Source: Desulfitobacterium metallireducens DSM 15288 (GTDB taxonomy: Bacteria > Bacillota > Desulfitobacteriia > Desulfitobacteriales > Desulfitobacteriaceae). Taken from it: DNA of 64,000 nucleotides. Each line of letters opens with the position of its first letter. Positions within the stretch are counted from its first letter, which is position 1. The stretch covers positions 1 through 64,000 of the forward strand of contig NZ_CP007032.1 in NCBI RefSeq assembly GCF_000231405.2. Reading direction: 5' to 3'. Made by a program: the position numbers and the translations under genes. Below are positions 13,074 through 60,278 of the stretch, piece after piece. The notes under the pieces are model-generated. The model was not told the DNA's origin. It did no database searches and saw only the letters and a list, made by a program, of their open reading frames with translations.

Positions 13074-13164
13074 GGAGGAGTATCGAAGTGGTCATAACGA
13101 GAGCGACTCGAAATCGTTTGACGGCTTAAACCGTCCGTGGGTTCGAATCCCACCTCCTCCGCCA
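13074..13164 (+). tRNA. tRNA-Ser (anticodon CGA)
   Basis: A 91-nt class II tRNA with acceptor GGAGGAG/CTCCTCC and anticodon stem AGCGA/TCGTT around CTCGAAA, giving CGA. The variable arm is GACGG/CCGTC and CCA is encoded. Confidence 0.93.
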
Positions 13165-13343: not shown

Positions 13344-13384
13344 ACCGCGACATGGAACTAGAATCTATGTCGCGGTTTTATTTG
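13344..13384 (+). terminator. Terminator-like hairpin
   Basis: ACCGCGACAT (13344-13353) pairs with ATGTCGCGGT (13367-13376), followed by TTTTATTTG. It would stop rightward transcription before the converging MFS gene. Confidence 0.7.
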
Positions 13385-13385
13385 T

Positions 13386-13460
13386 TACTTTCATCCTGCT
13401 TAAGTGCAACCATCGACTTTCGTCCCTCACTATGGCTCGGCGAAAGGCGGGTTTTCTTTA
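13386..13460 (-). repeat. 75-bp stop-codon-linked repeat, copy 1
   Basis: Read on the minus strand, this matches the plus-strand segment 32031-32105 at 67 of 75 positions. It begins with the TAA stop codon of the MFS gene. It contains CTTTCG...CGAAAG, able to form a stem. Both copies lie immediately 3' of a gene. Confidence 0.8.
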
Positions 13461-31190: not shown

Positions 31191-32033
31191 TTGGCTACAG
31201 TTGAGAAGGGGACGCTTTACGTTTGTGCGACGCCAATTGGAAACTTAGGGGATATCACCCTACGCGTTCTTGAAGTTTTGCGTGATGCTGATGTGATTGC
31301 AGCGGAGGATACTCGGCATTCACGAAAGCTATTAGAGCATTTTGGGATCAAAACTCCTTTAACGAGTTATCATCAACATAATGAAAAAGGGAAGGCTCAG
31401 GAATTGGTGCACAGACTTCAAGGTGGAGAAGTGATCGCTTTGATTTCTGATGCAGGTATGCCTGGAATTTCTGACCCTGGACAAGAAGTCATTCGCCTAT
31501 GTTTATCAGAGCATGTTCCTGTTGATGTTCTACCTGGACCTAATGCGGGTTTAACGGCTTTGGTTCTTTCAGGGCTTCCCAATGATCATTTTATTTTTCA
31601 TGGCTTTCTTCCCTCAACAAAGAGTGCCCGAAAACGTGAAATTAAAGGGTATGCTAAGCTCCCTTTTACGCAAATTTTCTATGAAGCCCCACATCGATTA
31701 GTGGATACGCTTACCGATCTTCTGGAGGTATGTGGAGATCGAGAAGCTGTAGTTGTTCGTGAGCTAACAAAGCTTCATCAGACGGTCCATCGGGGAACAT
31801 TAGAGAGTTTAAAAGTGGAGTTTCAGGCGATTCCCCCACGTGGAGAAATCTGCGTTCTTCTAGCTCCCTATGAAGAAGAGCCAGTTCAAGGTGGCCCAGT
31901 AGAGTGGCGAGAAGAAGTGGAAGAGGGAATCCATCAAGGGTTACAACCGAAGGAAGCCATGAAACGTGTTGCCCAAAAATATGGGATTAGTAAGAGAGAA
32001 GTTTATCAAGCGACTTTAGATCGTAAGGAATAA
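31191..32033 (+). CDS. rsmI: 16S rRNA (cytidine-1402 2'-O)-methyltransferase
   Basis: RsmI methylates the ribose of C1402 in the 16S decoding centre using SAM. The 280-residue tetrapyrrole-methylase-fold protein has ATPIGNLGDITLR (residues about 13-25), AAEDTRHSRKLL, LISDAGMPGISDPG and FHGFLP, all hallmark segments. The start is TTG at 31191 after ATAGGAG. Its stop codon is the first base triplet of the 75-bp repeat copy 2. Confidence 0.96.
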   Translation: MATVEKGTLYVCATPIGNLGDITLRVLEVLRDADVIAAEDTRHSRKLLEHFGIKTPLTSYHQHNEKGKAQELVHRLQGGEVIALISDAGMPGISDPGQEVIRLCLSEHVPVDVLPGPNAGLTALVLSGLPNDHFIFHGFLPSTKSARKREIKGYAKLPFTQIFYEAPHRLVDTLTDLLEVCGDREAVVVRELTKLHQTVHRGTLESLKVEFQAIPPRGEICVLLAPYEEEPVQGGPVEWREEVEEGIHQGLQPKEAMKRVAQKYGISKREVYQATLDRKE

Positions 32034-32105
32034 AGAAAACCCGGCTTTCGCCGAGCCTTAGCGAGGGACGAAAGTCGCTGGTTGCCCTTATGCTGGAGGA
32101 AAGTA
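32031..32105 (+). repeat. 75-bp stop-codon-linked repeat, copy 2
   Basis: Matches the reverse complement of 13386-13460 at 67 of 75 bases and begins with the rsmI TAA. CTTTCG (32045-32050) can pair with CGAAAG. A further hairpin, GAAAGTAT / ATACTTTC, extends the structure to about 32128. Confidence 0.8.
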
Positions 32106-32172
32106 TGAAACCGAAGGTTATACTTTCTGAAAGTAAAATAAAGAGACTTAGTTTCCGCTAAGTCTCAGATGA

Positions 32173-32220: not shown

Positions 32221-32493
32221 TTAAACAGCTTCAGATTCATTGTTGGCTACAGTTGCTCCCATAGCTGCTGCGCATTCGCGGCAAACATTTTTGCCATGGA
32301 ACACTTGAATATCGCTAGCATTACCACAAAAAACACAAGCAGGCTCATATTTTTTGAGAATGATTTTTTCCTGATCGACGTAAATTTCTAGAGCATCTTT
32401 TTCATCAATTCCCAGAGTTCTACGTAGTTCGATCGGAAGTACAACCCGACCGAGCTCATCTACTTTTCTCACGATTCCCGTTGATTTCATCAT
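32221..32493 (-). CDS. abrB: AbrB-family transition-state regulator with C-terminal zinc-ribbon-like tail
   Basis: The first half (MKSTGIVRKVDELGRVVLPIE..., residues 2-50) is the swapped-hairpin DNA-binding domain of AbrB. AbrB represses stationary-phase and sporulation genes during growth. The C-terminal half instead holds CVFC and CREC pairs (about residues 54-57 and 72-75), suggesting zinc binding in place of the usual AbrB multimerisation domain. Three consecutive ATG codons lie at 32490, 32493 and 32496; 32493 gives the best spacing from GGAGGG. A good sigma-A promoter is upstream. It lies on the minus strand between rsmI and metG, as in Bacillus. Confidence 0.9.
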   Translation of the reverse strand: MMKSTGIVRKVDELGRVVLPIELRRTLGIDEKDALEIYVDQEKIILKKYEPACVFCGNASDIQVFHGKNVCRECAAAMGATVANNESEAV

Positions 32494-32539
32494 CATGACT
32501 CCCTCCTTACAACAACATTCGACAATTTCTAACACCCTT

Positions 32540-32568
32540 ATGATACCAACCGTACCATTTAAAGTCAA
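32540..32568 (-). promoter_or_regulatory. Sigma-A promoter of abrB
   Basis: On the minus strand TTGACT (32563-32568), a 17-base spacer and TATCAT (32540-32545). Confidence 0.75.
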
Positions 32569-43546: not shown

Positions 43547-43597
43547 AAAAGAGAAAGTCGAAAATTAAGATAATTATGAGATTATTTCAAAACATTT

Positions 43598-43741
43598 GTA
43601 AAGGCAAACTCAGTGAAAGCCGAGGACGCAAAGCTACGAGTCTAAAGCCTCGGCAGAGGTAAAGATAGTCGGGTTGCCATGTTAAAGGATACGACGAATT
43701 GATCCTTGTTTTGGCAACGCCATACAGGGATTTATTTTTTT
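43598..43741 (+). promoter_or_regulatory. Cyclic di-GMP-I (GEMM) riboswitch with terminator expression platform
   Basis: The aptamer core (43603-43679) has the GEMM-I landmarks GGCAAACTC, AGTGAAAGCCG, GGACGCAAAGC, GTCTAAAG and a closing GGGTTGCC. A terminator follows: ATCCTTGT (43702-43709) pairs with ACAGGGAT (43724-43731), inner stem TGGC/GCCA, then a run of T. The aptamer 3' strand GTTGCCA (43673-43679) plus AAGGAT (43685-43690) is complementary to ATCCTT plus TGGCAAC (43712-43718) in the terminator. Two exclusive folds are therefore visible. The wiring suggests that bound c-di-GMP favours termination of the chemoreceptor mRNA. Confidence 0.9.
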
Positions 43742-43766: not shown

Positions 43767-45536
43767 TTGAAAAAAATTAAGTCTAAGTTTATCGCTTCGT
43801 TTTTGCTCATAGCCATGATTATGGCTGCCTTTGTTGGAGGGTACAGTGTCTATAGTCAAGTTCAACTCGTGGATAATGAAATTCAGGATTATCGAGAAAC
43901 TTTATTTCAGGAATATGATGCTATGATGAAGGCACAAGTTGAAACAGCTACGAGTTTAGTACAAAATGTTTATAATGAACAGCAAAAGGGGTTACTGACA
44001 GAGGAGCAGGCTAAAGTGAAAGCGGCTAATCTCGTTCGTGACTTGCGTTTTAATGGGAGCAACTATTTTTGGATCGATACGACAGAAGGCATAAATGTTG
44101 TTCTTTTAGGAAGAGATACAGAAGGGAAAAGCCGTCTTGCATCTAAAGATCCCAACGGGGTTGAATATGTAAAAGAATTTATTAAGAATGGGCAGCAAGA
44201 AGGTGGGGGTTACAGCGATTATCAATTTGCTAAACCCAATGAAACACAACCGCTACCGAAAAGAGGATACACGCTCCTTTTTAAACCCTATAATTGGGTT
44301 ATCGGTACCGGGGACTGGGTCGATAATATTGAGAAAAGTGTGAGCGAGAAACAAGCTACATACCAGGCAGATATGCGTAAACAGGTAGGGATTAACGTAG
44401 GAATTATTCTGGTCGCGTTAGTTGCAGTTATTGCTTTTGCACTTTATTTTAGTCGTAAAATATCCCGACCCATTATCGAGGTAGCAGAGGAGAGTAAAGC
44501 TGTTGCCAATGGGGATTTCACTCGAGAAAAGCTGAATGTGTCTTCAAAAGATGAGTTGGGCGATTTAGCGGATTCTTTCAATAAAATGTCAGATAGTTTG
44601 CGTGAGCTTGTTCAGAGAGTTTCCCAAGCCTCCTCACAAGTTGCAGCTACTTCTCAAGAGTTAACCGCTGGAGCCGAGCAATCTGCTCAAGCTTCCAGTG
44701 AAGTTGCCGTTTCAGTAACAGAAATGGCTCAAGGCGCGGAAAAACAAAAGACGACGGTCGATGAAGTAGCAGCTGTAGCTGAGCAGCTCGCTGCGGGTGC
44801 GGAACAAATTCAAGCAAATACAGGAAATGTTGTTAGTTTTGCAGAAAGGACAGCACAATCAGCAGATGAAGGTCGTACTGCGATTACGACAACGATAGAA
44901 CAAATGAAACAAATCCAGTCTGTGGTGAACCGTTCTGCTGAAATCACACTTCAATTGGGCGAGAGATCTCAGGATATTGGCAAGATTGTGGATACCATCT
45001 CGGCCATTGCTGATCAAACAAACTTACTTGCGCTGAATGCCGCGATTGAAGCAGCTCGGGCTGGCGAACAAGGAAGAGGGTTTGCTGTAGTTGCAGATGA
45101 AGTTCGCAAATTAGCTGAACAATCACAAGAAGCAGCGAAGGAAATTGCGCATTTAATTGCCAGTATGCAACAAGATACAGAGAAAGCCGTTAGTGCCATG
45201 AATAATGGGACTTCTGTCGTAGAAACGGGATCCAAGGTCGTAGCCCAAGCCGGAGAAGCCTTTGAAGAAATTGCACAACAAATCGAAAAAGTTGTGGCTC
45301 AGGTCAAAGGGATTTCAGAGGAAATGGAGCAAATGACCCAAGGAAATGAACGAATTGCTTCTTCTGTACGCGATTTGGATCAGATCAGTCGGGTTATTGC
45401 TGATCAAACTCAGAATGTATCTGCTTCTTCAGAAGAACAAGCCGCTTCGATGGAGGAGATCGCCTCTTCAAGTCAGCTCCTAGCGAAGATGGCTGAAGAA
45501 CTAGACCAGTCTTTAGCTAAGTACAAGATCAACTAA
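43767..45536 (+). CDS. Methyl-accepting chemotaxis protein with periplasmic Cache sensor
   Basis: This 589-residue receptor has a first membrane helix (about residues 8-28) and an external single-Cache domain (about 35-190; [10 protein letters not shown] and [11 protein letters not shown] are typical). A second helix (about 210-232) leads to a HAMP domain (about 230-285) and a long signalling coiled coil. The hairpin tip reads [42 protein letters not shown]. It signals to CheA/CheW. The start is TTG at 43767 after AAAGGGG. Expression is controlled by the c-di-GMP riboswitch directly upstream, linking motility behaviour to the second messenger. No other chemotaxis gene is nearby. Confidence 0.95.
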
Positions 45537-59352: not shown

Positions 59353-59375
59353 TATAAATACAACTAAAGCTTTGC

Positions 59376-60170
59376 TCAAACCAAGTTTTCTTTAGTTATC
59401 GGGTTTGGAGCAGAAGAACTGGAATCTTCCTCTGAAGCACTTGCTGAGGGGGAGGAGGCTATTTCAGTGGTTTCAGAGGGCTCCAGAGTGGATTCGGTAA
59501 CAATCACGCCATCTTGATCCAGAGGGAGACTTTCACCTTCACGTGGTTCTTGGGCAAAATCTAGTGGCTCTTTTTTCTTGAAGTATTTTCCGAAGGAATG
59601 CGTTGTTTCGCTGGCTAGATGGGAGGTAGAGTGGACTAAGGATTTAAAGCTGTCGCTTAATCCTTTATCTGCTGTCACAAGATGCGTCTCACTTCCTTTT
59701 TCAGTAACAATGACATCTTGCCCAATCGTTGATATATACTCTGCCTGGAGGATAGCTTTGCCATTGAGAAGACCCTCAAGCTTGCCGCCTGAGATCTGAA
59801 TTTGGGTAATTCGTCCTGTTTCTGATTCAATAAAATACTCTTCAGCAACTCCGAGGGTTTTACCACTTTGCGTAATGACGCGTGTGCCAATAATTGAGAG
59901 CTTTTCTTTAATTAAGCTGAGGATCTCGGGCAGATTTGCAGATTTTTCAACATGCGCTCCTTTGTCAATCGTGATGGCATCATCGCCTACGCTGATGACT
60001 TTACCGTAGGGAATGATGCGTTGGTCCTTAAAGAACCCTTTAAGGTCAACTACGAGAGCAGCAAGGGATTTGGTGCGGGCATCAATAACTAGACTTTTGA
60101 CATAACCGATATGTTGTCCTTCGCTCAGGGAAACAATCGGTAAAGATAAAAATTTACGGCTTGGTTTCAT
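59376..60170 (-). CDS. PRC-barrel domain protein
   Basis: The 264-residue protein has two PRC-barrel domains (about residues 5-80 and 90-160; the first contains GYVKSLVIDARTKSLAALVVD). An acidic, Ser/Glu/Pro-rich, probably disordered C-terminal third follows. PRC-barrels occur in RimM and photosynthetic proteins, and stand-alone forms in spore-formers (YlmC/YmxH type) have no firm role. The start at 60170 is preferred: GGGGGCG lies eight bases upstream, while the ATG at 60176 is too close. It lies on the minus strand between prs and pth, in the place of ctc in Bacillus. Confidence 0.8.
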   Translation of the reverse strand: MKPSRKFLSLPIVSLSEGQHIGYVKSLVIDARTKSLAALVVDLKGFFKDQRIIPYGKVISVGDDAITIDKGAHVEKSANLPEILSLIKEKLSIIGTRVITQSGKTLGVAEEYFIESETGRITQIQISGGKLEGLLNGKAILQAEYISTIGQDVIVTEKGSETHLVTADKGLSDSFKSLVHSTSHLASETTHSFGKYFKKKEPLDFAQEPREGESLPLDQDGVIVTESTLEPSETTEIASSPSASASEEDSSSSAPNPITKENLV

Positions 60171-60278
60171 GAGCATTCGCCCCCTTATTTTTATTTAATA
60201 ATCAGCGTCAGTACAAATATGTTTCCTTCACAATTTATTCGAGAGATGTTTTCAATATGCTTAGAGGGAGTGAAATAG

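Follow-up and report, generated by a model that had tools for sequence, protein, structure and literature searches.

The 75-base repeat found twice in the window (the whole 64,000-nucleotide stretch of the Desulfitobacterium metallireducens chromosome that was analysed) belongs to a family of short (~75-140 bases), non-coding, dispersed elements of many copies. The family probably represents structured, non-autonomous mobile DNA whose copies nest behind intrinsic terminators. It has defined ends, empty sites in related genomes and a position adjacent to terminators, and terminator sequence is embedded in the element itself. Such an element would be actively transposing, and it may recognise the hairpin or T-tract of a terminator.

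Copies of the element in the window

The earlier note reported that the minus strand of 13386-13460 and the plus strand of 32031-32105 match at 67 of 75 positions, which BLAST within the genome confirms (89% over 75 bases), and that the edge of the repeat is the TAA stop codon of two unrelated genes. Both genes are genuine, an MFS transporter (stop at 13460-13458, minus strand) and rsmI (stop at 32031-32033, plus strand), and their ends are indeed unrelated. By chance the core pattern would be expected zero times (0 matches in 100 shuffles). The second copy exceeds the reported repeat, running to 32135 rather than 32105 with the right end TTATACTTTCTGAAAGTA, and the first looks like the same design minus ~30 nt, perhaps deleted between two GAAAGTA repeats. 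Read from the sequence, the right edge of copy 1 is GTA, 9 nt from the stem of a terminator that lies downstream of tRNA-Ser (13074-13164). These features and a probable third copy are listed in Table 1. No Rfam match above the gathering score was obtained at either of the two copies, and a known RNA family or riboswitch was thus ruled out. Elsewhere in the window, a c-di-GMP-I riboswitch (74 bits, 43593-43681) is located just upstream of a 589-aa ORF at 43767.

Table 1. Element copies, terminators and adjoining genes in the window
Feature	Position	Strand	Basis or remark
Element copy 1, right half shortened	13386..13460	-	Covariance model R1 at 13399-13460, 71.9 bits; first three bases are the MFS stop
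Element copy 2, full length	32031..32135	+	Covariance model R1, 78 bits; first three bases are the rsmI stop
Third copy, probable, degenerate	59353..59394	-	Covariance model R1, 31.5 bits, E 6.4e-4
Putative terminator within copy 1, opposite strand, GGCTCGGCGAAAGGCGGGTTTTCTTTA	13434..13460	+	Terminator scan
Putative terminator within copy 2, opposite strand, AAGGCTCGGCGAAAGCCGGGTTTTCTTTA	32031..32059	-	Terminator scan and fold
Pre-existing intrinsic terminator, copy 1 behind it	13344..13376	+	13-pair stem, then TTTATTTGTT
Pre-existing intrinsic terminator, copy 2 behind it, 7 nt off the edge	32143..32166	-	9-pair stem, then TTTATTTTAC
MFS/sugar transporter gene, 457 aa, stop is element TAA	13458..14831	-	PF00083, 2e-61
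rsmI, stop is element TAA	31191..32033	+	TIGR00096, 275.9 bits; orthologues in relatives
AbrB/SpoVT-like gene, convergent with rsmI; its terminators precede the element	32221..32568	-	PF04014, TIGR01439

Family and anatomy

In the host chromosome (3.18 Mb), BLAST finds about seven good or partial copies and a covariance model finds 20 at E<=1, 13 of them below 1e-3. The model has matches in 43 of the 45 genomes of the host's family, with 1-50 copies per genome, and in 24 of 299 genomes sampled across the phylum, including other families; one copy is carried by a plasmid of Sporomusa termitida. One genus among the family genomes is probably Desulfosporosinus, because contigs of that name share copies with the analysed loci. 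A Desulfosporosinus variant was found at 9 loci by contig searching, and the same kind of search with an exact 24-mer of the host variant found none among the genome contigs searched. A phage collection gave no element match, and literature searches of open-access text found no description of the repeat. A second repeat, approximately TTTTCATTCATCAGTGGTGCCGCGCAGCGGCATGGGGGTCTGATA, recurs beside element copies in different genomes (flanks of L026, L114, L139, L090 and L127).

Three host copies are identical although their flanks are unrelated, which sets the ends at TAAAG..CTGATACGTA, and copies in general extend from TAAAG to about GTA; in aligned copies these ends are not inverted repeats of each other. 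In the orientation of the earlier note, the plan is TAAAGAAAACYYGGC-loop-GCCRAGCC...GGTTGCACTTATGCT, followed by a hairpin AGAAAGTATA..TATACTTTCT and GAN(2-5)GTA. The opposite strand, here called the terminator strand, begins with about TAC(N3-5)CAGAAAGTAT and continues through the same 5' hairpin (AGAAAGTATA...TATACTTTCT) and a variable middle to the element's own terminator, which is last. The CTTTCG/CGAAAG stem that the earlier note pointed out is present in the host copies, but it is the neighbouring CYYGGC/GCCRAG hairpin whose stem is kept family-wide. Additional hairpin modules, for example GACGAAGACACTGTCTTCGC, sit mid-element in many Desulfosporosinus copies. An optional internal module GACGAAGACACTGTCTTCGCACG...CTTCTTGCAGTAT, sometimes present twice, was also observed (L027, L028, L049, L112, L145, and L329-L388 of the related genome G014), a modularity like that of BOX elements.

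A probable terminator within the element

The terminator-strand end of the element, CTYGGC-loop-GCCRRG-TTTTCTTTA, is terminator-like in both window copies by terminator scan, and that of copy 2 folds as a terminator hairpin. The T-tract TTTTCTTT is found in 139 of 155 copies. Changes in the two stem arms are partly coordinated (CTC/GAG, CTT/AAG, CTC/GGG), and over 46 distinct arm pairs the standard pairs amount to 91% on the terminator strand versus 80% on the other, because a C-A mismatch on one strand is in many cases a G-U pair on the other, mostly at one position. The observed pairing was reached in 23 of 2000 shuffles, the sequences are related, and the covariation of the stem is modest. 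When 53 full-length copies were submitted to RNAalifold, this hairpin was the only structure returned, on the terminator strand only, with nothing on the other strand. The suggestion of a 3'-UTR processing or stability module in the earlier note is thus borne out in part, in that the opposite strand of the element ends in a hairpin like that of an intrinsic terminator, and the element itself is predicted to terminate transcription.

Copies lie head to tail in places, with a period of ~84-114 nt, and at these tandem junctions the ..GTA of one copy directly abuts the TAAAG of the next. Such arrays would follow from the presence of a hairpin and T-tract at the end of the element, which re-creates the target. 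At L044 (G003:C1:2126675-2126957), four or more copies follow one another every 84 nt, and the right part there is GC-rich and lacks the usual ACTTTC hairpin.

Right edges beside existing terminators

In most copies the GTA edge is followed by a run of A and then by a hairpin that differs between copies, the putative intrinsic terminator of a gene on the opposite strand. A strict detector places an opposite-strand terminator at 41 of 97 right edges, compared with 1 of 98 left edges and 39 of 4040 random sites, and in 36 of the 41 the stem starts 6-9 nt from the edge. A second criterion agrees (40/97 right, 1/98 left, 46/4800 random), as does an unselected 1.2-Mb stretch of G014 (4/11 right versus 0/15 left and 17/4000 random). 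The strict detector catches the hairpin at only ~42% of right edges, and most of the others show the A-run. The right-hand neighbour gene is convergent in about two-thirds of cases. A few copies (L003, L006, L128) depart from the pattern, lying inside coding sequence or ahead of genes without a terminator. Overall, the right edges suggest that the element occupies the RNA-release point of existing intrinsic terminators. Intrinsic terminators release RNA at such points.

Two further observations concern placement. In the host, L003 (G000:503922) is a shortened copy inside an ORF, on the antisense strand, that leaves the frame unbroken and may now be protein-coding. In G014 (C3:1-1200000), 35 of 38 element matches are on one strand, with the terminator strand apparently tracking the probable leading strand.

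Empty sites

Empty sites were sought by searching the joined flanks of copies in sister genomes. Clean ones are GACAGA^TCAAAAA (G022/G030), CTATAG^AGAAAAA (G012/G004) and TCTAATA^TAAAAAGG (G022/G032), and AATAGCT^GAACAAAA (G020/G021) is near-exact. None of the four clean empty sites has a target-site duplication, and there is no fixed 4-5-nt target by the left end of the kind required for IS200/IS605 elements, the empty sites ending TTGA, TTCT, GTTC and TTTA on the terminator strand. The empty site for L128, found in G010, retains GATATGC, which may be an excision scar unless the right boundary differs there. Derivatives that share one internal deletion and keep both ends recur at several sites in G014, an indication that mobilisation acts on the ends.

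Stop codons

The earlier note had proposed an element that inserts at stop codons and supplies a new TAA. The mobile appearance and the supply of TAA hold, but insertion is not directed at stop codons. Among 138 assessed copies, only 5 begin precisely on an in-frame stop, including both copies first noted in the window, and the 38 in the unselected stretch of G014 yield none. The genome-wide count by which the earlier note meant its proposal to be judged was made, and the stop rule fails. The two window copies and the three others are 5 of the 33 that have a same-strand upstream gene, which is what could be said for stop-codon targeting; that reading is nevertheless extremely improbable, given that TAAAG opens the element at every location, that its precise common feature is at the opposite edge, and that ORFs also enter copies in other frames. 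The latter run on inside the element, as in the third window copy, where an ORF (59376-60176, minus strand) passes the TAA in another frame and stops at a TGA 19 nt inside.

The shared TAA edge is accounted for by the near-invariant TAAAG start together with insertion beside the terminators of convergent genes: the terminal TTTA of the terminator strand is TAAA on the opposite strand, and therefore a convergent gene entering in one frame stops at the first codon of the element. In a relative without the element (L229), rsmI has an ordinary stop beside the terminator of the convergent gene, and rsmI of relatives without the insertion ends at nearly the same residue. Degenerate copies occupy the same place beside rsmI in relatives belonging to several genera (L218, L228; G016, G014).

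Possible means of spread

In the mechanism proposed here, the element would enter 6-9 nt past a terminator stem without target duplication, the upstream gene would be spared by insertion behind its terminator, and the inserted element would re-create a terminator and T-tract as a target behind which a further copy could insert. Where a convergent gene runs into the insertion in one frame, the element's TAA would become its stop. A trans-acting HUH transposase (Y1/RAYT-like) or the machinery of group IIC introns may be the mobiliser; it counts against mobility that no mobilising enzyme is tied to the element. Alternatively, the repeat might not be mobile now, being an old functional 3'-UTR or backup-terminator module that recombination has spread and selection has maintained, as its location directly behind terminators, its embedded terminator and the degenerate rsmI copies in several genera would allow. 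Such a module is distinctly unlikely in view of loci that are unrelated yet carry identical copies, of the clean empty sites seen in close relatives, of the tandem arrays and of the plasmid copy.

If the element is mobile, it could tentatively be a REP/REPIN-type repeat moved as single-stranded hairpin DNA by a REP-associated tyrosine transposase (RAYT), a possibility on the doubtful side. The element is asymmetric and hairpin-bearing and lacks terminal inverted repeats and duplications, and most family genomes encode a Y1 protein of ~260-305 aa, two of which were tested and scored 79.5 and 77.9 bits with NCBIfam REP_Tyr_transpos (cut-off 80). RAYT genes are flanked by REPs (PMC3116915), but the ~2 kb around each of 20 such Y1 genes is free of the element, the flanks of the empty sites have no fixed tetranucleotide, and neither the host genome, with its three identical copies, nor G025 has a Y1 protein. 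An IS200/Y1 transposase in the host genome was ruled out by the lack of a PF01797 match. It is unlikely that the element is instead a SINE-like RNA moved by the reverse transcriptase of group IIC introns, with which it would have terminators as a common target. Insertion behind intrinsic terminators is the known habit of group IIC introns (PMC4424553), and the host has four group II introns (L325-L328; G000: 597982, 1393126, 1723824, 1920952) that match Rfam intron models, share ~1.8 kb of identical sequence and each begin (T)GGTGCG directly behind a same-strand intrinsic terminator; their near-identity suggests that they were recently mobile. However, the element and the intron share no sequence, the insertion points of the introns follow (A)TG or TTG, neither of which is found at the element junctions, and there is no reverse transcriptase homologue in 1.2 Mb of the copy-rich G014. 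One-sided truncation as a mark of retrotransposition was rejected, as truncation in G014 is not clearly one-sided and both left-only and right-only remnants occur. The introns and the element have a target in common, which is not proof of a common machine. An autonomous copy with matching ends was looked for in the host genome and rejected: the element's right-end pattern gave only the known copies, plus matches with one mismatch at the level of the reversed control. A bacterial SINE-like partnership, in which a ~100-nt terminator-capped RNA element borrows the group IIC reverse transcriptase and is copied to points of transcript release, is an idea we hold with considerable doubt.

If the element is mobile and nests behind terminators as proposed, its integration point would be a transcription termination site that the element re-creates, permitting serial nesting; short repeats could multiply without damage to genes and add backup terminators genome-wide, and the replacement of a stop codon by a mobile element would be accounted for. 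The terminator-targeting group II introns of the same host make trans-mobilisation testable.

Comparison with known systems

Like SPRITE of Streptococcus pneumoniae (PMC3049150), the element is short, interspersed, similar to a Rho-independent terminator and enriched near the 3' ends of genes. SPRITE is described as a single 18-bp stem with a U-rich tract and AAAA/TTTT terminal repeats, with no empty sites available; by that description the present element is set apart by at least two hairpins, a terminator at one end, empty sites, and edges that abut existing terminators. BOX of S. pneumoniae (PMC3049150) is likewise modular with optional internal hairpin modules, but has terminal inverted repeats and target duplications, of which the element has neither; the same two features separate it from MITEs, with which it shares the character of a short, dispersed, non-coding repeat. 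Group IIC introns (PMC4424553) are also found directly behind intrinsic terminators, with the same strand relation in the host, but the element, at ~75-140 nt, lacks intron domains and a reverse transcriptase, differs at its ends and gave no Rfam intron match at either window copy. REPs and REPINs with RAYT (PMC3116915) are short, hairpin-bearing, extragenic repeats that form clusters, and RAYT-like genes are found in most genomes of the family; the element differs in that it is not two inverted REPs, its copies do not flank the RAYT-like genes, and its own genome has no RAYT. SPRITE is thus the nearest idea, and REPINs and group IIC introns are the nearest mechanisms. The element is filed as a small interspersed mobile repeat that is distinguished by terminator nesting.
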